Origin: Caulochytrium protostelioides
Lineage: Eukaryota; Chytridiomycota; Caulochytriomycetes; Caulochytriales; Caulochytriaceae
NCBI GenBank assembly: GCA_003615045.1
Contig: ML014144.1
Location: forward strand, 1-64,000
Direction of reading: 5' to 3'
Length of the DNA stretch: 64,000 nt
This document shows positions 1 to 47,486 of this stretch, piece after piece; the first letter of the stretch is position 1; each line of letters opens with the position of its first letter. A model generated the notes under the pieces. That model searched no databases. It was given only the letters and a program-made list of their open reading frames with translations, and was not told where the DNA came from. The translations under genes were made by a program, and so were the position numbers.

Positions 1-165
1 CCCGTCAGACCTGCGGCGCTATGCCGCGTCCCCAGGCGAGCCCCACTGCAGCCCGTAGTCGGCAAGCTCATCCGGCGATAACCCTAATGCGGACTGCTGC
101 TTTGGGGGACACCTCGGGGACAACAGCGAGGGCATGGCGTTCGTGTTAGGTCGTCTCAAGGGCCT
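1..165 (+). mobile_element. Fanzor-like element, C-terminal tail and 3' end (copy A, cut by window edge)
   Basis: The first 78 bases read as an open frame (PVRPAALCRVPRRAPLQPVV then GKLIRR) ending in TAA at 79-81. This is identical to the C-terminus of the fragment near 6.6 kb and about 95% identical to the copy near 19.3 kb. It continues into the same 3' flank (CCCTAATGCGGACTGCTGCT, then TTTGGGGGACACCT). Homology with copy B fades after about 165. The upstream part lies outside the window, so this copy may be a fragment or the end of a full gene. The family call comes from the longer copies, which show the NRDLxAAxNIRR motif of Fanzor/TnpB-like nucleases. The 3' end of the element faces the 3' end of the ATAD2-like gene, 52 bases away. 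Confidence 0.6.
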
Positions 166-216: not shown

Positions 217-3200
217 TTAAAGATCACCATGTAACGCGTGAAGCCATGGAAGGGCTGGTGTCGTTAAGACATGGTCCAAGTGCATATAGTCCCATGCCAT
301 GATGTGCTGTAATACGGTCGACGTCAGTTGCGTGATTCGATCGACCGTTCGCGTCGACATAAGCGTCGTGGACGATGTTGAAGTGCACCGGCCGGAATCA
401 TCGGATGCTCTTAAGGGCGGCAAGAAGGCGCTAAGCACGGTATCGTCTTGAAGCCACGCTTGCATGTCGCACACCAGCTCATGACACCGACGACGCTGGA
501 TGGCGTCGCTGCCCAATTCTTCAGGTAGAAAATTCAGTCTTCCCACAGTCTGTGCGTCAGTCAGATTCGGCAGGATGTGAAGAATGGGTGTATCATCCGA
601 ACAGGGTGACGCGGAGCCATCGCTGTCGGCAGCTGGTCGACCACTCTCCTTCCCGCCAAGCGCTTTGCTCTGGATCAGGCTATCGCATGGCGGTGGCGTC
701 ACAGAATTATGATTCGACTCACCACATGGCTCCATGGCGTTCCTATCAGAGCTGCCTCGAGGTAGTCGTGATGACGGGTGCGGACCCACGACCAAGCTTC
801 GGCCGTTCAGAGTTGGTGGCGCTGATTCGAATCGCACCGACTCGGATCGCGCCGATGAAAGGGCCGCGACTTCATTGATTTCATTCTGCGGAGGACAGTC
901 CGGCCGATCACGACGACGCAGACGAGTCGCCGCGTGCTCACAATCTCGGATGAATGATTCCGAGAGCTGGCCCACCATGAATAACGCATAGTCTTGCATG
1001 TCGCGGGCACGGTTATATGCCTCTAGCTCACCTTGCTGGCGGATGGATTCAACCAACAGAGAAAGATCAAACAGCCATTCATCAACCGTCAAGTAGCGAT
1101 TGTTACCGATCTCATTGTGGATGGTAGCCAGGGTGAGTGCATGCATACGATGCACGAGATCAGACGCATGGATGTCCTGCGCGGCTTGCTGATTGAGGGA
1201 TGTCAGTATCTTGGCGTCATGTGAAGGCATTGCATTGTTAGTCATGGCCAGCGAGGCCGCATCAGGGCGCCCGCGAGCTCGCTTGGCCCCCGCCGGCGCA
1301 TAACGTTTGAGCTGTTTGGTCATTTCCCGCAACTCCATGCGCAGCTCGACCATCGTTTTCTGGTCCAGATGTGCTCGCTGGATGGTCATATCCGATGCCA
1401 GAAAGCCTCGCGTTTTCTGTGGCAACGGATCGTCTTGAGGAAGGTCCCGGAACGTCGTTGGGTCCCACGGATTCACGTGACTTGGCGAGGATGCCGAGCC
1501 GCTAGCTGTGGTGCGCGAATGACCCACGTTCCAAGCACACAACCGCAGTTGCATGTAGCGATTCAGAACAGCTTCCTCGACGCTGCCAAGGTATGACGGA
1601 ACATCCAAATCGGAGCCGGAATATTGAATGTGGTAGGCGGCGCTTCGACGCCAGATCTCGCTATATGAAGCGCTCGGCATGGCGTCAGAGCCGTTCATCA
1701 GATGTGCGGAACCGCCATCCGTCAAGATGACGACGATAGCATGGCTGTGAATGAAATCGATCAGAATATGCTGTGCTGTGGTGGTCAGGTTTGGCCACAA
1801 GTGGTCAAACTGCGGCAAGAACAGCACCACATTGTTGATGCCACCCGTGCGACAACTCGACAAAATCTGTAGTACCGCGGCTTCCAACGTTCCTGCATCC
1901 GCAGAAACGGCCAGCGTGACGGAGCTTAGTTCCACGATGCGATATGATGCCTCTTGAGCGACATGAAGCAGGTGGCTTGCAATACTGGACTGACCTAGAT
2001 CGGCATGGTCGCAGCCAATTCTGATGACACTGGAACGAGGCGGACATATATGCCGAATGGAGGCTTGAAACGTGAGAGAGTCTGTTAACTGACGCCAGGC
2101 TGCGAGCACGCGACGCAAAACAGGAGCCATGAGGGATGCCAACCCTTTCATCGGGGCGGGCTTAATCAAGGCCGATCCACCTGCCCATGACTTCGGACCT
2201 GCCCGGTTTTGAGAAGGCGTGATGTCACGAAGAGCTGCTTCAAAATCAACGCGCTCGGTGCGTAGAGAATTAGTGTCGATCCGGTAGCGTTTGGTCGACA
2301 CGTAGATCTCAGGATAAAGTCGACGAATCGAGCGAAGTGCTGCTTCCGTGACGAGACCCTTGATATCAGCGCCACTGAATCCATGAGTGACGGACGCCAG
2401 CCATGTCAGGAGATGTTCGGATGGCGGTACGGCCCAAGAAGCGGTATTGACTTTGATGATATGGCGTCGTGCTTCTTCATTGGGCAAACCGAAATAGAAC
2501 TCACGGTCGAAGCGCCCAGGCCGACGCAGAGCCGGATCGATGGAATCCAGACGATTCGTCGCACCCACCACGACGACCTGTCCACGCGATTCCAGCCCAT
2601 CCATCATGGTCAGCAAGGTACTGACCATCGAGGCATGAACTTGGTCCTGCTTGGAGGTCCGTGCTGGGGCGAGGCCATCGATTTCGTCAAAAAAGATTAA
2701 CGAAGGCTGCCAACGGCGGGCTTGCTCAAACAGCATACGAATGCTGCGCTCGCTTTCGCCCACATACTTGTTCAAAAGCTCAGAGGTATGGGCCAGAAAG
2801 ATAGCTACTTTTTGATTCGCCTCAGAAGAGCAGCTATACGCTAGCGCTGTGGCCGTCATCGTCTTGCCAGTGCCTGGCGGACCGTAGAAGAGCACACCCT
2901 TGGGGCTTTGAATGTTGTATGCCTCGCAAATATGAGGATACTGCAGAGGTAGTTTCATCATTTCGAGCAGTGACAAAATCTCTTTGTTGAGACCTCCAAT
3001 CATGCTGAAATCCACGGGAGGCAGGCTCGGCTTGGAAGCAGTTCCTGACCCCGTCGAACACCATGCCTCCGAGCGGTCATCGGATGCGAGGCCCTCGGCT
3101 CGGCGGAGATCATCGATGTTGATGGGCTGAAACATGTCGGGCGTGATTTCAGGGTCGTCTGCGCTTGTCCCACCACCGGACAAAACACCGGGAAGCAAGG

Positions 3201-4202
3201 GAGCCTTTTTCTCGGAATCGTTTGACTTTCTCTCCTCATTCGATGGATCACCGTCATTAACCTGAGTTATATGCCCGGCGTATCGATGACGCCTTTGAAG
3301 CGAGTTCATGGCGATGTCGCTCCCAGCAGGCGTTGTCTCTTCCGAATACGGACCGAAGATGGGCCCCGATCGGGGCGGCAGAGCCGACCGAGGAGCGCTC
3401 TGCGCTGCTCTTTCACGAAGTCGCACAGTCCAGAGCGATGGATCGCGTGATCGCTGCGAGGCCGCGCGGGTATCCTCACCACGACCTTCGTCAGTCTGCT
3501 TACGTACGAGCCCCTTTTCAGCACTTTCGTCATCTGAGGACTGAATGGCAATTACACCCCGACGCTTTAGACGGGACGGCGCAGCGTGCTTGGCATCGTA
3601 ATCCGAGTCAGAAGTACTCATTTCCATGGTCTGACTGATCGCCTCAAGTTGTTTGCTTCGCTTCTTGTCAGAAGTGCGACTATGTGTCGATCGATCACTC
3701 TCTTGTAGACGTCGTTTGTGGCGCTCCTGACGTTCTTGGTACTGTCGATTCCGCCGCCGCTCACGGGCTGAAGTACGAGCTGATGGAGGGGCATGATCAC
3801 TACTCTCCATTTCCTCATCGCTGTCCATTACCAACGGGCGAATCCTGGGGAGGTGTTGTCGCACGGCGCGGCGAATCGGCTGGTCGGATACATCACTACC
3901 AGAGTCGTGGCTGTTATCCGTCGTACGGGCGCCCATGCGGCGGGTATTGCGACGTACGACCCTGCCACCTCTAGAAGCTGGTGACGCATCGGGCAACTTG
4001 TGGATAATATTGGATGTATTGATGACCGAATGCTCGTTTGACGAGGCGTTGTCCACTGAGCGGTCCGAGTCTTCCTCGCTGGTGGTGCCCAGCGATTCGC
4101 CGAGTTCGTGGATCGCATCTTCATCTTCTGGTTCGGTGACAATGTCGTCTTCATCGATGGAAGATGCGCTCTCGTCAATAAAGGGGTGAGAATAGCGGTT
4201 GT

Positions 4203-4233
<31 letters not shown>

Positions 4234-5907
4234 ATCCTTGTCCTCGTCTTTCGCATCACTATCCCTATCGGCTTCATCGTCGGAAGAAGTTTTTTCATCA
4301 AAGAAGGAATCGGAGCGTCGTTGATGATTCGCCTGGTGGTTTTCAGCAACTGTATCAGCATCGATGGACGTCACAGGTAGCGATTTGGTCGAAGGCAGCT
4401 GGGGTTCGCGTACAGGACCGTTATGTTTCTCACCGTCTTCATCGCTGCTCATTGGGATCGCTCGCGACCCCCGAAGCACAGTCCCTTTCCCTGGCTTGAC
4501 GGCTTGTACGCCAGCCTGAGCCAAGCCACGAGCGCGCTGATCTGCGCCGTCGATGCCAGGGGTCGACTTGCTCATGGGACCCGTCGTATCTGAAACAGGA
4601 ACCACTTCTCCATCCGAGGGCGCTTCATCCCGATTCGATTGCCGTGCTATAGGGGTTTTCTCAAGCACGGATGTGACTCGACGGACATCGCCACGGGCTC
4701 CTGCTGCCCATGAAGCCCCTTGCGATGCTGCGCCCCTTGAATCGCCGTCGACGTCCGAGGTGTGACCCTTGGGGGCCGGCCGATCACTGGATGGCGGTGG
4801 CGACGGTGGCGGGACCGTGCGGTGAAGCGCTGCGGATTGTGAGCTGGGAAGAGGCGCGTCAGCGAGTGCGGCAGAACTCGTTACCGTGCTGTCGCTGTCG
4901 GCGTGGCCACCGCGCGGGGGTGGAGAGGGTGCATCACGAGTCGATGGCTGGCCGTGCGCACTCTGGTCATGCGGATCGTCGTGCTCACTGGGGCCCGAGA
5001 GGTCGGCATCCGAGAGAGCGTCGTTACAAAAAGACATGAGCCGGGCACGCATCGACGGCCGAGGTTTCGTGCGCGGGCCATCCCGAGAAGGGCGTGACGC
5101 CTGCGGCGGATCCGAGGCCCGTGGTTCCGCTCCTACCGGCACTGGAGGTGCCGGTGGTGAAACGCGGGGTGGCAGCACGGCGTGTCCGGCGGTCGGGACG
5201 CTGGTCTCGGCGTGGGCAGGCAGGGCGTCGCCTCGGGCTGCATGCTTGACTGATGTCGGCGAAGACTTTGATGGATGGACCGCGGCCGCGGGGTCGTGGT
5301 GATAGCGTTGATGGGTCTTCACTGCACTAGGTGCCGACTCCGCTCGCCGTGGGGCCGATGCGGTCGTCGACGTATCCTTCATCTGAGACGCCGAGGGGTC
5401 GCCGTTCGTCTGGGAAGGGTTACGCGGCTCTACTGCGTCGTGCGGCTTCGATGCGCCGTGGTGATGCAACTTGGAGGCGGACTTACCCTTGTGCTTGGGC
5501 TTGGAGCGGAGTTGGGCCAAATCGTACAACTTCGGAATAGTCTGCAGCAGGGGCAGCGACCCTTTGGAGAGGGCGCTGTGAGCCAGCGGTATAGAGGCGG
5601 CGTCCGATCCTGATGATACCAGATGCGCTGGGATCGGCTTCTTCACGCTTGGCTGGCCGTCCAGCGTCGCTGTCTGAATGCGCTTTTTAACACTCCGCGG
5701 CCGATCGGCCGCGTCGGATGATGAGGCGACGCCATCCGGGCGCTGGGGAGTGCTCTGGTCGATTGAGGGACGAGAAGGGGGGCACTCAGGGTGGGGATTG
5801 CCCTGATGAGAGCGATCGCGATCGCCCTCAGGACCTTTCAAGGGTTTCGCGGACGGCGCTCCCGTCACAACATTGGCGATGGAGCGCTTGCGCCGTTTGA
5901 AGCCCAT
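217..5907 (-). CDS. YTA7: ATAD2/Yta7-like chromatin AAA-ATPase with bromodomain
   Basis: Nuclear AAA-ATPase with a bromodomain; in this family it binds chromatin and handles histone H3-H4. The 1896-residue frame begins MGFKRRKRS. Residues 1 to about 930 are low-complexity, Ser/Arg/Asp-rich, and include a run of ten aspartates coded near 4200-4240. The first AAA domain (about 970-1240) has Walker A GPPGTGKT near residue 1010, Walker B LIFFDEIDG near 1075 and the arginine-finger segment RRPGRFDREFYFG near 1130. The second AAA domain (about 1330-1480) has lost a recognisable Walker A, as is usual in the family. Around residues 1580-1670 the stretch with RYLTVDEWLFDLSLLVESI, EAYNRARDMQDYA and SESFIRDCE matches the ATAD2 bromodomain layout and keeps the YN pair that contacts acetyl-lysine. 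The length is above that of human ATAD2 (about 1390), mostly from the acidic N-terminus. Single exon as read. Confidence 0.9.
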
Positions 5908-6454
5908 CGGGGATTGTCGGATACGAAGGCGTTCGCGGGAAAAAGGGGGTTCGTTCGTGACGACGGCAAGGACGATGGCGAGGCAATGTAAAACACCCCT
6001 ACCCTGGTGCTATATCGACGATCGAGTACGGCGATGGGGTCTCTAGGATCCATGGGGGCGACGTGCGACGCTGATACGGACAGATAACTCCGACATGTGT
6101 GGTGCCACATCGACACGATACCCAGGGCCCTTCCCGTAGAGAAAAGGCGAAGCAAAAGCGACCCCAAACAAGCCACAAGCCACTAGCGACCCGCCACAAA
6201 CGCTGAAGGAGCGAGCCGTAAGATCCGAAAACCCATACGAGCTCGGGCCGGCGCGAGACCGGAACGTCCATCCGGAAGCGGGCTGATGGGGCAGTCAACG
6301 GGGGAGAAAAGGAGGGCGTACGGGCACGCGGCGTCGTGTTTGGTCACGCAGCTTCAAGTGGTTGGGCCGGCCTGTGGCACTCCGTGGCGCCTGACCTCCG
6401 CTGCGGCATCAGAAGGAGTGATCGCCCTGGCTAGTGGAGTTTCGGCGGAAACTG
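5908..6454. other. Intergenic, no gene seen
   Basis: Upstream region of the ATAD2-like gene. It holds only short overlapping open frames with no recognisable motif. It probably contains the ATAD2 promoter and 5' leader on the minus strand. Confidence 0.5.
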
Positions 6455-6700
6455 GGTCTGCAGGACCGGGGCCGCCAAGACGACGGGGGTCCTAAAAAAG
6501 GGCAACGCCGGCGCAAGGGGACCGTGGTTCGAGGTTTGCTGTGGTGTAATGCCACCCACGGCAAGTTGGTGAACCGGGATCTCATTGCCGCGTTCAACAT
6601 CCGACGCAGCCTGGCCTCACCCGTCAGACCTGCGGCGCTATGCCGCGTCCCCAGGCGAGCCCCACTGCAGCCCGTAGTCGGCAAGCTCATCCGGCGATAA
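6434..6700 (+). pseudogene. Truncated Fanzor-like nuclease C-terminus
   Basis: This is the open frame (88 codons from the ATG at 6434) inside copy B. The first seven or so codons are unique flanking sequence and the rest is the element. Only the C-terminal RuvC-III segment survives, so it cannot be a working nuclease. The frame is uninterrupted, unlike copy C, which suggests a younger truncation. No paired CxxC zinc-ribbon cysteines are visible; the single Cys lies in RGLLWCN. Confidence 0.6.
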
Positions 6701-6783
6701 CCCTAATGCGGACTGCTGCTTTGGGGGACACCTGGGGTGCACCAGCGGGGGCATGGCGTTCGTGTCAGGTCGTCTCAAGGGTG
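6455..6783 (+). mobile_element. Fanzor-like element fragment, RuvC-III end plus 3' flank (copy B)
   Basis: An open frame from about 6455 to the stop at 6698-6700 encodes a basic stretch (PKKGQRRRKGTVV), then RGLLWCNATHGKLVNRDLIA and AAFNIRRSLASPVRPAAL, ending VVGKLIRR. The RGLLWC / NRDLxAAxNIRR block is the third RuvC-like motif, with its Asp, at the C-terminus of Fanzor proteins, eukaryotic relatives of TnpB/IS607-type OrfB. Homology to copy C begins at about 6455 (GTCTGCAGGACCGGGG), so the copy is 5'-truncated. RuvC-I, RuvC-II and the target-recognition lobe are missing. After the stop, about 80 bases match copy A and less strongly copy C, ending near GGTCGTCTCAAGGG. It lies between two host genes and has no catalytic potential by itself. 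Family assignment is from motif recognition. Confidence 0.68.
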
Positions 6784-7509
6784 GACCTGTATGTTTTTTT
6801 AAATATTGAAGGCCCGTTAATCCATCTCTGCCCTTGTGCCCGAGCCATGGGCTGATTCCACCGCTGCTGGTCTCATGAGGCGTTTCTTGCGTCCTGGATG
6901 CTCTCAAACCGTATCGGATCCTATCGAATCCTATCGCGATTCAGCGCGTACGGAAGCGGCAAGGGGGAGTATTTACGTTGCTCGTTGGCATGGCGCAGTG
7001 GAAAGCATCGGAAGGGACGGGGCCGCCGCGCCTCAGGCGCGCTTGCCGTGATCTCGGGAAAAAAAGGGTGGCCCAGTCGGCCTTGCGGATGCGCGTAGAG
7101 ACGAGCAGTGACTCAGCGTATTGCCCCCTTAGCGCCAGGCTCAAGCGTCCATTGTGGAGGAACGCCAAACACATGTGTTGACACCGAGAACGGTTTGCCA
7201 TGAGCTGATTTCAGCCCCCGACGCCCACAATAGAAGCCCATCGCTGGACGCCGCGGACCTGGCGCCGACACGGCCAGCAGCCGTACAAGATCCTGAGTGA
7301 CGATCCGGCACATCACCGTACGATCCATGCTCCTGCGATAGGAAGGCGCGCGATGATGATGACGATGATGACGAGGCGATCATATGCCGTCCACCGGTCG
7401 GAGAGCCATGACCCAATAAACTCTTGCCGTCTCGTAATCTGCCTTCGAGAATGGGGTCGCTGCATCGCTTCCGTCGCCATTCCTATCCTTCCCTATTTGA
7501 TCTATCGCC
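6784..7509. other. Intergenic, no gene seen
   Basis: Spacer between the element fragment and the next gene. It begins with an AT-rich patch (TATGTTTTTTTAAATATTG) directly after the element end. A GAT-rich stretch lies near 7352-7380. No coding signal is recognised. Confidence 0.4.
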
Positions 7510-9531
7510 ATGAGTGACTACCCTGCAACGGGAGACGATCTCAAAAAGCAAGCCGAACTCAAGCGCATCGACAAGCTCGAACCTGTGCTGCCACCGCACG
7601 TCCATAGCAATCCGCAGTCACTACCGTTGCCATTGCAGCATCTCTATCGGCATCAGCGGCACCATGACCGTCTCTACCAAGCAGCCGCGCTGGGCGCCGC
7701 GACCGCCCGCCGTTTAACGGCGACCGAGACGACTATGACCCGCGCTTTCCTCGAGCAATGGCACTGGAAGCAGATCTCTCAGTTTGTCGATCGATTGAAC
7801 ACGCTCAAGACGCCCGTGGTCACGGCAGACGAGGACAGCACGGCGAGTAGTGACGAAACCGACAGCATTCCCGACAGCGATCAGATCGCCGCTCGTGCGA
7901 CCTCCAAGACGCGTACACAGGTTGTCGCAGATTCCGAAACATTCGGGGATAGCCCCGAACTTTTGACTTCCACCTCGCCGCGGCTGATGCGAAGAGCGAC
8001 GTCAGTCTTGAGTATGCTCGAGCCCGAAGCGATCCGTCATTCGCGGCAGGAGGTCTATCAAGCCGTGATGGCCGCGACGCGTGACGACGCCAAACAAGTG
8101 AGCATGAGCTTTAAAGGCGCATTGCTGCTTGGCCGCATCTTGCGCCAGACGGTGCACGTCGGTACCAAAGCGAGTTGGCAGCAGAGCAAGCTCTTGGTCA
8201 AGCAAGTGTTTACCAGATCTCCCAAAAAGTCGACCGTCCTCACCGCGGAAGAAACGAAAACCCTCAAGCTGCTCCACGTGCTCCAGTCGGTGAAAGACGA
8301 AGTCGATCGGGAGCAGGTCCAGCCTGATGAGCAGCTGCTGGAGCGTTGGTCCGATGTGATCGAAGCGCAGCGCCTCGCCATGATTCCTCAAGCGCCGCCG
8401 CCCCCGCCGCCTCCACCTCCGCCGCCTCTCCCTCCCATGAATCTTCCAGGCACGGCCATGCGCGGAGGATCGAACGTCGCCATGGTACGCCCCACCTCAC
8501 ACCATGTGGCATGCCCGTCCGCCTCTGAGCATGCGGGACCCCACCGCGGCATCCAGCTGCCCGACGTGACGGTCGGTGGATTGTCCCCGTCGCGGGAGCC
8601 TCGAGACAAGCTGGCGCCGGCCGGTTTGGCCGCCGGCCAGTTCCCGGAGGGCCTCCAGCAAGAAATCAGCAAACGGTTCGGGCAGCTGAGGCCGACCCGA
8701 GTCCCGAAGTCGCCGGGCGGAACACCACAGCGCGTCGCGTCGTCGTCTGACCGTCTGTCGCCCGCGCGGAATGGTCCTGAGCTGGAGCAAGCGATCTGGG
8801 AAGGAGTCCGCCGCAAGTTCATGCAGGTCAAGGCGCTGGCATCGTGTGAGGAAGATGAGCCGACCAGCGACGTGTCCGAATGGGTGGATCCCCGCGACGC
8901 CGCGCCTGTGATGGACCCGCCGGTTACGCTGCGCGAGGCCCCCGGTCCACGGGTATCGCTGCGGCCGCTGTCACAGGGCAAGCCGGTCGCGAAGTCTGAT
9001 CTTCACCGCCGTCGTCCCACCCCGACGATGCCCATTCCGGCTCCATTCCGGCCTTCGCGGTTGGACCGGCAGACCGCTCTTCCGGCGACCGTCGCCGACG
9101 CGTCTGCAGGGACAACAGCTGTAGCAACTGCAGCCCCTGCTCCTGCAGAGTTGAACTCGATTCCGCGCCGTGCCTCGCCATCGACAGCCGGTGAAACCAC
9201 CCGGGCTCCAGGTAGGTCAAACCATATGGCGTGGACCGAAGCAGCGCAGCGACTGCGCAGAGAAACCGTCGTCCAGCCAAAACCGCGGAGAAGCATTTCG
9301 GTGGACTTGCTGTCATCGTCGGCGCTTGCACCGCGCACGAAAGACCCGATGGGCCGGTCCACCAGTGCCAGTGGGACTCGCGCCGTCGCGTTGGCTAGTG
9401 GCGAGTCCTCGGCCACTCCGCTGGCTATCCAGACGGTGCCCGGTTCGGTGGTGACCGTCCCTTTGCCGCTTGATTATGCCCAGCTGCATACGGCTCCTGC
9501 GGCCGAAGCTCGGCGACACAATGTTTCGTAG
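7510..9531 (+). CDS. Proline-rich protein of unknown function
   Basis: A 673-residue frame starting at MSDYPATGDD, which I do not recognise. Visible parts are: an N-terminal segment (about 20-100) predicted mostly helical, with LPPHVHSNPQSLPLPLQHLY and an EQWHWKQISQFVDRL stretch; an acidic Ser/Asp patch (about 112-140); a second probably helical region (about 155-290) ending LLERWSDVIEAQRLAMIPQ; and a run of eleven prolines just after it (about 298-308). The remainder is disordered, Ser/Pro/Arg-rich sequence. The proline run resembles profilin- or SH3-binding segments, but there is no FH2 domain, so it is not a formin. The uninterrupted 2 kb frame and codon use like its neighbours support a real gene. 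The first ATG after a stretch without open frame was taken as the start. Confidence 0.7.
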   Translation: MSDYPATGDDLKKQAELKRIDKLEPVLPPHVHSNPQSLPLPLQHLYRHQRHHDRLYQAAALGAATARRLTATETTMTRAFLEQWHWKQISQFVDRLNTLKTPVVTADEDSTASSDETDSIPDSDQIAARATSKTRTQVVADSETFGDSPELLTSTSPRLMRRATSVLSMLEPEAIRHSRQEVYQAVMAATRDDAKQVSMSFKGALLLGRILRQTVHVGTKASWQQSKLLVKQVFTRSPKKSTVLTAEETKTLKLLHVLQSVKDEVDREQVQPDEQLLERWSDVIEAQRLAMIPQAPPPPPPPPPPPLPPMNLPGTAMRGGSNVAMVRPTSHHVACPSASEHAGPHRGIQLPDVTVGGLSPSREPRDKLAPAGLAAGQFPEGLQQEISKRFGQLRPTRVPKSPGGTPQRVASSSDRLSPARNGPELEQAIWEGVRRKFMQVKALASCEEDEPTSDVSEWVDPRDAAPVMDPPVTLREAPGPRVSLRPLSQGKPVAKSDLHRRRPTPTMPIPAPFRPSRLDRQTALPATVADASAGTTAVATAAPAPAELNSIPRRASPSTAGETTRAPGRSNHMAWTEAAQRLRRETVVQPKPRRSISVDLLSSSALAPRTKDPMGRSTSASGTRAVALASGESSATPLAIQTVPGSVVTVPLPLDYAQLHTAPAAEARRHNVS

Positions 9532-19209: not shown

Positions 19210-19828
19210 AATGAATACATGTGCTCATATATATAGGCCCCACCTTACCTAAGGCGAACACCATCCCCTCCGTAGTGCCCCCGCCGCTGCCCCGCCCCTC
19301 TCCCCAGGTGTCCCCCAAAGCAGCAGTCCGCATTAGGGTTATCGCCGAATGAGCTTGTCGACCACGGGCTGCAGTGGGGCTCGCCCGGGGATGTGGCATA
19401 GCGCCGCAGGTCTGACGGGCAAGGCCAGGCTGCGTCGGATATTCATGCGGCAATGAGATCTCGGTTCACAAACTTGCCGTTGGTGGCATTACACCACAGC
19501 AAACCTCGGACCACGGTCCCCTTGCGCCGGCGTTGCCCTTTTTTAGGACCCCAATCGTCTTGGCGACCCCGGTCCTGCGGACCTGGTCGACCGCCCTTGA
19601 CATGATTGGGTAGGTGCCCGCCCGGGACGCGCGAGAGATCGGCACGGCCGTCGTGTCCCGGATTTGCACCTTTGTCAGGTGTAGATCCACCGATTTTTCT
19701 GGGCATGCACCTGGTCCGTTCAGAACTTGTCGACAAGGACGGTGCCGAAACGCTGGCCGCACGCCTGGTACGCCCGAGCTGTTGGAACGGTGATCTCGCC
19801 TTAGTCGCCGCGGGCAAACTTAAAAGCA
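19210..19828 (-). mobile_element. Decayed Fanzor-like element, RuvC C-terminal third (copy C)
   Basis: The longest copy, on the minus strand. Reading from about 19828, the remnant gives KFARGD, stop, GEITVPTARAYQACGQRFGT, VLVDKF, stop, then after frameshifts KGTVVRGLLWCNATNGKFVN and RDLIAA. At that point a one-base loss relative to copy B (GCCGCATGAATATCC against GCCGCGTTCAACATCC) makes a TGA. The order VPTxRxYQ / VLVDxFRT / RGLLWC / NRDLxAAxNI is that of the C-terminal half of Fanzor proteins. It is preceded immediately by a trinucleotide microsatellite, and the N-terminal part of the protein is absent. The final 115 bases of shared 3' sequence are about 95% identical to copy A, and the six differences are all transitions. 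Clearly non-functional as protein. Confidence 0.7.
19443..19828 (-). pseudogene. Fanzor-like nuclease pseudogene, several stops and frameshifts
   Basis: Coding remnant of copy C. In the first frame at least three stops fall within about 50 codons (after FARGD, after VLVDKF and after RWIYT). The frame then shifts to the one carrying QDRGRQDDWGPKKGQRRRKG and NRDLIAA. It is recognisable only by alignment with copy B and family motifs. Confidence 0.62.
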
Positions 19829-19884
19829 CCTAGCAGCTTTAGGGACATTACTTTCTCTAGTAATGATGATCATGATCATGGTCG

Positions 19885-19964
<80 letters not shown>
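19885..19964. repeat. (TCA)n trinucleotide microsatellite
   Basis: About 27 uninterrupted copies of TCA/ATG-type trinucleotide, flanked on the left by imperfect GAT/CAT units. It lies between the 5' break of Fanzor-like copy C and the 3' end of the Mei4-like gene. It is open in all frames, which explains the poly-Met and poly-His shadows here; it is not coding. Confidence 0.95.
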
Positions 19965-19980
19965 GAAAGAGTGTGGCGAG

Positions 19981-46656: not shown

Positions 46657-47486
46657 ATGTCCGAGGACGAGCGCTCCGAGTCGGGCGAGACCGAATGGCC
46701 CCAAACCCGCGTTCTCGAGAACACGCTCTACTGTGGCGGTAAGTGGCAGTAATACCGATGGGTCGTGGCTACAACTCCGCCATCGTCGCCCATGGCGATC
46801 CTCTCCCTTGTCATCAGCGCGTGGCTGCCCGATACTCGCTACGAGAGCTACGCGGGCCTTCATTGAAATCAGGCTCTGCATGTGCATCATCAAGATGCAG
46901 ACAGAGACTTCTTTTATCACTCACACGTCTCTTTTTTGTACACTCTTATTCTGTCGATAAATGGCTGATCGTCTGGTCAGTCTGCCACCTGCCGCCAGAA
47001 TACTGCACATGGGGCCCGAACCCGGCGAAGTGCAAGGTCTGGCTGCGCGACAACCACCCGGACATGTTCACGGTGCTGTGGAACGATGCGGACTTGACGG
47101 CGGAGCTGGAGCAGCTGCAGATCTCGGAGGCGAAGGCCTCGGAGACGGCGCCAACGTTGACGCCCAAGCAGAAAAAGAAGGCCGAGCAGGCCAAGCGCGT
47201 CACGATCAAGCGTGTGGAGCGAACCAAAAGGAAATGCGTTGTCATCGTCACTGGCCTTGACAAGTTCGAGCCGGATCTCAAGCGCGTCGCCAAGCTCTTT
47301 GCGCAGCGCCTCGCCACAGGCGCCTCGGTCACCAAGTGCCCGCAGGGCGGCGAGGAAATCACGGTTCAGGGCGACTGCCAGGACGACATCTACGACATTG
47401 TGCTGGACAAGTTCCCCAACGTACCCGAAGAAGTGATCGAGCTGACCGAGGATACCAAGAGCAAAAAGAAGAGCGGCGGCGCGTAA
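46657..47486 (+). CDS. TMA22: Density-regulated protein DENR/Tma22 (spliced)
   Basis: Partner of MCT-1/Tma20; the pair recycles 40S subunits and promotes re-initiation. Coding exons 46657-46738 and 46981-47486, giving 195 residues. Exon 1 encodes MSEDERSESGETEWPQTRVL then ENTLYCG. The donor GGCG|GTAAGT and acceptor GGTCAG|TC join to make YCGVCHLPPEYC, restoring the zinc-binding Cys pairs typical of the DENR N-terminus, then CTWGPNPAKCKVWL. A coiled, Lys-rich linker (TPKQKKKAEQ) leads to the SUI1/eIF1-like domain (about 105-190) with VERTKRKCVVIVTGLDKF and ITVQGDCQDDIYDIVLDKF. Length and domain order are normal. Convergent with eS17, 315 bases apart. Confidence 0.95.
46739..46980 (+). other. 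Intron of DENR/Tma22
   Basis: 242-base phase-1 intron, GTAAGT...TCAG, inside the Gly codon-to-Val junction of YCG|V. Supported by restoration of the conserved cysteine motif. Confidence 0.9.

Follow-up and report, generated by a model that had tools for sequence, protein, structure and literature searches.

Truncated relics of a probable Fanzor1-type element lacking the zinc ribbon in the chytrid Caulochytrium protostelioides

Three related sequences at one end of a contig

The DNA analysed is a 64 kb stretch (hereafter, the window) from Caulochytrium protostelioides. This fungus is described as a mycoparasite whose sequencing drew on single cells as well as an enrichment culture (PMC6784888); the NCBI taxonomy places it in Caulochytriomycetes, Chytridiomycota. 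The window has a G+C content of 65% and starts with the first base of contig C34, which belongs to a 20.9 Mb assembly of 337 contigs. Its first 20 kb contain three related sequences, named copies A, B and C. An original prediction had attributed them, from short motifs, to an element family coding for a Fanzor, a type of eukaryotic nuclease related to Cas12 of CRISPR systems. The copies and their parts are as follows (+ and − indicate the strand):

1..162, +: copy A, the 3′ end of the element, with the last codons (...VVGKLIRR), the stop and the 3′ noncoding tail; 96% identical to copy B and to a copy on contig C315
6455..6783, +, with an A/T-rich tail end at ∼6807 (approximate): copy B, 5′-truncated, comprising the C-terminal coding end and the 3′ noncoding tail
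6434..6700, +: copy B open frame (88 codons and a TAA stop), containing RuvC-III only according to its translation
6572..6607, +: RuvC-III motif NRDLIAAFNIRR in copy B, aligned in relatives, with the catalytic Asp codon at 6578-6580
6701..6807, +: 3′ noncoding tail of copy B, common to copies; candidate omegaRNA scaffold, with a degenerate hairpin at ∼6713-6754
19210..19830, −: copy C, a longer 5′-truncated copy with stops and frameshifts
19723..19740, −: RuvC-II remnant VLVDKF of copy C, in which the catalytic Glu of DEF is changed to Lys, followed by a stop
19446..19466, −: RuvC-III remnant NRDLIAA of copy C, in a frame different from that of VLVDKF

All three sequences lie where the prediction had placed them. 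Copies B and C are 93% identical over 283 bases, and copy A is 96% identical to B over 162 bases and 94% identical to C over 118. Copy A is incomplete, since it begins at the first base of the contig. The frame of copy B translates into ...RGLLWCNATHGKLVNRDLIAAFNIRR...VVGKLIRR-stop. Homology of copy B to its two closest relatives, the C315 copy and copy C, starts at 6454-6455 (with other copies, at 6447 or later), and the initial ∼20 bases of the 6434-6700 frame are probably flanking DNA. The right end of copy B is rough, the tail boundary having been set by coverage. In copy C, GEITVPTARAYQ and VLVDKF were present upstream as predicted; they share one frame, and RGLLWCN and NRDLIAA lie in another. 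The prediction that these copies are truncated or decayed was borne out by the 5′ truncation, the stops, the frameshifts and the catalytic Glu lost from copy C; judged from their sequences, copies A, B and C are all dead. No further copies were detected in the window by tblastn with family proteins (E up to 1e-3) or by blastn with copies B and C.

A decayed family spread over the genome

The original count of three copies proved far too low. When the assembly was searched with copy B DNA, the best 40 of 456 candidates were scored (A, B and C among them); chance similarity is excluded because the weakest of these 40 places had an E value of 2e-57. With copy C DNA, the best 40 of 485 candidates were scored. 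At the protein level, a C-terminal query (169 residues) gave at least 179 matches (best 150 of 979 candidates scored), a query for the RuvC-I region (121 residues) at least 152 (best 150 of 346 candidates scored), and an N-terminal query (74 residues) gave 53 (all 58 candidates scored); a single copy may yield two matches in these counts. The fall in match number towards the 5′ end is qualitative, because the queries differ in length and two of the counts are lower bounds. It agrees with the common 3′ end and varying 5′ end of 63 copies that were compared, which measured 169-1477 bases (by coverage, the contig-cut copy A included). Copy boundaries were taken from coverage, and at least one (that of L021) clearly lies on another repeat. 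Fanzor copies are spread over many contigs, including long ones.

The 63 copies are a non-random sample, since the loci were picked by similarity. The suggestion that the family was recently active is favoured by one cluster, formed by A, B, C and the C315 copy (90-96% identity), which is the youngest and the only one of its kind among the 63; the median pairwise identity of 73% speaks against it. Differences per codon position amounted to 0.21/0.21/0.26. Read from these values, decay has been mostly neutral, and for that reason we make no claim of an active copy.

Of the four copies that are youngest among those examined, three sit within 20 kb of one contig. The clustering of A, B and C could reflect local spread or gene conversion.

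Motifs, profiles and a predicted fold of the Fanzor1 type

Comparisons were made with three solved Fanzor1 proteins, SpuFz1 of Spizellomyces punctatus (8gkh, 9ceu-9cez), PpFz1 of Parasitella parasitica (9cf0-9cf3) and GtFz1 of Guillardia theta (9cer-9cet), and with a set of 126 relatives. Window copies A, B and C are too short to contain the DPG of RuvC-I. Longer copies add, upstream, ...CIIGNDPGRTNIFMAMVG..., which corresponds to RuvC-I, and ...YGASKFAPGGKGEISVPTARAYQACAQRFRTVLVDEFRTT... (a string mixed from several copies), which corresponds to RuvC-II; on the RuvC-III side they read ...RGLLWC...FVNRDLNAALNIRR.... A regular expression found the DPG in five of the 63 copies, the remaining ones being too short or decayed. 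DPG or DTG was present in 115 of the 126 relatives, and in all those of at least 550 residues except the chimeric P0002. The RuvC-II Glu (DEFRT) sits next to the linker, in the alternative position; this residue, E537, was invariant in 30 of 30 aligned relatives and aligns with DEFRTS of PpFz1. The RD motif of RuvC-III (NRDxNAAxNI type) was found in copies B and C and in the 30 aligned relatives, and the catalytic triad was intact in all 30 of these metagenomic proteins.

Profile searches built from the relatives recovered all three solved Fanzor1 proteins. Further, the predicted structure of one relative superposed far better on the solved Fanzor1s than on Cas12 or TnpB, and showed the Fanzor1 fold (WED, REC and RuvC). 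The likeness covers a predicted fold over 486-531 residues, a DPG-type RuvC-I, the linker-side RuvC-II Glu and the RuvC-III motif; the structurally aligned sequences are only 12-17% identical. The Fanzor assignment, made initially from short motifs, is supported at the level of sequence and predicted structure by the DPG of the longer copies, the profile matches and the superposition of the model.

Several observations weigh against this assignment. The structure was predicted for a relative rather than for a protein of the host. The Pfam family for the TnpB/Fanzor TNB domain (PF07282) gave 0.0023 on host copy L061, short of the cut-off, and was silent on host copy L062 (contig C43) and on P0007, P0012, P0015, P0017, P0018 and P0058. 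A Pfam scan of the copy B frame alone gave no match, nor did a PF07282 search of the assembly, yet six of 14 control genomes were positive. Since no PDB sequence match was found for L062, the tie to the solved Fanzors runs via the metagenomic relatives, which are 35-46% identical to L062. Finally, the genome-wide search for full-length copies that had been suggested revealed many further copies, but no intact full-length gene among the 63. Weak or absent Pfam matches, and the missing zinc ribbon described below, could be taken to mean that this is a RuvC-like family unrelated to Fanzor, with convergent DEF and RD motifs. The marked preference of the relative's model for solved Fanzor1s over Cas12 and TnpB argues against this, and we consider it very improbable.

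In one copy, L092 (contig C326), the three acidic residues are kept in a single open frame of at least 273 residues, with DLG replacing DPG. The best match to relative P0037, at C226:11026-12123, covers residues 244-610 of that protein and has one stop. A 685-residue frame on contig C206 was considered as an intact copy and rejected, there being no intact Fanzor among the open frames listed for it. In the annotated Caulochytrium protein P0002 (CXG81DRAFT_23488, on a 260,677-base contig), the N-terminal ∼140 residues are a Fanzor fragment 74% identical to L062, joined to a C-terminal part of a different kind; the fusion may be an annotation artefact or a captured exon.

A clade without the zinc ribbon

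The motif given for Fanzor and TnpB by Bao and Jurka (PMC3627910) reads D-X(125,275)-[TS][TS]XX-[C4 zinc finger]-X(5,50)-RD, and Saito et al. (PMC10432273) describe a CCCC zinc finger common to SpuFz1 and ISDra2 TnpB. PMC10711439 reports a zinc finger in 'many' Fanzors; the search pattern given there requires CxxC twice and, for this reason, cannot match zinc-less proteins. The fingerprint stated in the same source is a DPG plus the alternative Glu. The Caulochytrium family shows this later fingerprint but lacks the zinc finger of the 2013 motif.

No CxxC was found between RuvC-II and RuvC-III in any of 125 parsed relatives (P0002 being the one left unparsed), 93 of them at least 550 residues long. 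The looser spacing Cx(2-4)C occurred in two of the 125, and 37 had no cysteine whatsoever in this segment. In contrast, control segments of SpuFz1, PpFz1 and GtFz1 contained CxxC after RuvC-II in all three cases. The host copies do have stops and lost catalytic residues, and their zinc cysteines might be missing only through pseudogene decay. Since uninterrupted metagenomic relatives, with an intact triad in the 30 aligned, also lack CxxC, the absence is not due to decay; that explanation is scarcely credible. These comparisons lend strong support to the original proposal of a subgroup marked by the missing cysteines.

In the model of the relative, the linker consists of short beta strands (block pLDDT 87 to 93); as predicted there, a short beta-strand segment without CxxC metal ligands takes the place of the zinc ribbon. 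The alignment showed the linker of host copies L062, L066 and L061 to be ∼45 residues longer than in the relatives; L092 lacks this extension, and copy C seems, from its sequence, to fall in the long-linker subfamily. In L062 and L075, the linker insertion looks as if the segment following DEFRTT had been duplicated internally. In a test for such duplication (seven copies given, five parsed), two of the five scored above all 300 shuffles and three did not.

The annotation PF26935 was present on 29 of 120 among the relatives listed (P0029 to P0124). A Pfam family therefore already covers part of the clade, which weighs against its novelty; PF26935 was absent from Pfam scans of three relatives annotated with it. 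No description of a zinc-less Fanzor clade was noticed in the parts of the Fanzor literature covered, a scope outside which Jiang et al. (Sci. Adv. 2023) lies, and no literature linking Fanzor with Caulochytrium was found.

The 3′ tail as a candidate omegaRNA

Beyond the stop codon, ∼80 alignment columns are common to the copies, with ∼0.26-0.35 differences per site, rising thereafter to 0.52-0.59. A hairpin in this tail was picked by eye from the consensus before counting, and its score leans in its favour; the counts were made on alignment A6, which holds 49 of the 63 copies, 14 having been removed by hand beforehand. Under these conditions, 79.9% of the cells were paired, a share reached by 0 of 500 shuffles, and the covariation score was 0.163 vs 0.131 for shuffled alignments (1/500), slid versions reaching at most 0.096. 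Weaker measures were less distinctive (pairs changed on both sides, 56/500; further pair types, 27/500), and sliding the hairpin by -1 gave 20 both-side-changed cells vs 17 in place. RNAalifold predicted no structure for the 3′ tail on A6, single folds of four tails were not unusual (z -0.71 to -1.58; copy B, -1.58), and no Rfam families were found in the window or in four loci. Fanzor1 omegaRNAs are described as having a 7-base-pair first stem bound by the RuvC and TNB domains (PMC11423790). By analogy with these, the 3′ tail may have served as an omegaRNA, for which it is a candidate.

Mode of spread and surroundings of the copies

Of the 63 copies, 60 could be tested for target-site duplication; with their rough ends, they gave no signal (mean longest match 5.43; 20 shuffles 5.17-5.55). 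A 9-base repeat at L073, suggestive of a target-site duplication, was not counted as evidence. Among described elements, the Fanzor1 elements CRe-1, 2 and 3 of Chlamydomonas reinhardtii are likewise high-copy, often 5′-truncated and mostly 3′-complete; they share Helitron ends, and ∼70%, 57% and 10% of their loci, respectively, have target-site duplications (PMC3627910), of which the Caulochytrium copies gave no signal. The CMe-1A Fanzor1 of Cyanidioschyzon merolae is described as having ∼150 copies with ∼80% identity to the consensus, lacking terminal inverted repeats and being unclassified (PMC3627910); the Caulochytrium family is likened to it by this published description.

The copies might have been spread by a long interspersed nuclear element (LINE)- or Helitron-type element carrying the Fanzor gene as a passenger, in which case the truncation would reflect the carrier and Fanzor would have had no part in the spread. 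This concerns the mechanism of spread only, not the Fanzor identity. The combination of 5′ truncation and a common 3′ end is that of CRe-1 to 3, which have been assigned to non-autonomous Helitrons (PMC3627910); further, many tails have A/T-rich ends, and the assembly contains reverse transcriptase genes (19 matches, 15 above the cut-off). However, judged by position, only a few of these matches lie near Fanzor copies, and no target-site duplication signal was detected at the copies with their rough ends. On balance, a passenger origin is a real contender that falls a little short of an even chance. A search with Helitron_like_N (PF14214) gave no match and was uninformative, the controls being equally silent.

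Upstream of the Fanzor copy at L020 / L053 (contig C51) lies a reverse transcriptase-like stretch with a YVDDLLII-type motif, which we take to be of the Copia type; the retroelement is nested or adjacent. At G000:C144:46455-48115, two same-strand Fanzor matches flank a reverse transcriptase match (46892-47338), as if the latter had been inserted into a relic. A viral source was considered and rejected: an IMG/VR scan with alignment A5 returned 115 pattern matches, whereas tblastn gave none.

Copy B lies between an AAA-ATPase gene (217-5907, −) and an open frame at 7510-9531. The 3′ end of copy C is ∼50 bases beyond the stop codon of a MutS-family gene, in which MutS domains were found, and a long ATC/CAT trinucleotide repeat at ∼19877-19965 adjoins this copy.

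The parent element and its clade

Very probably, A, B and C are dead, 5′-truncated remains of a mobile element, present in high copy number, whose product was a Fanzor1-type nuclease belonging to a clade without the zinc ribbon. Judged from the relatives, the parent protein would have had ∼600-650 residues, with WED/REC and RuvC parts and a split D-E-D site. By analogy with the solved Fanzor1s, it would have bound an omegaRNA derived from the element's 3′ end together with flanking sequence, and would have cut matching DNA. The Caulochytrium copies form a relic family that extends over the genome of this chytrid; less expected is their membership in a large zinc-ribbon-less Fanzor1 clade. More tentatively, and with doubt prevailing, we propose that a large, compact Fanzor1 clade (hundreds of proteins, mostly of ∼560-720 residues, with members from environmental sources, a green alga and a chytrid) may work as RNA-guided nucleases without the zinc ribbon, using a metal-free beta segment instead. 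It may have been little noticed because mining leans on the zinc cysteines, and its multiplication in Caulochytrium may have produced a population of Fanzor relics that ranks among the larger ones known.

In TnpB and the solved Fanzors the zinc ribbon sits between two catalytic residues and is part of the recognition motif. A natural zinc-less clade with intact catalytic residues would show the ribbon to be dispensable in that lineage, and would offer compact, zinc-free candidates for RNA-guided nucleases. Given such a clade, Fanzor censuses that rely on the cysteine pattern would be incomplete. The relic population in this one small fungal genome is a record of the spread and death of such elements.
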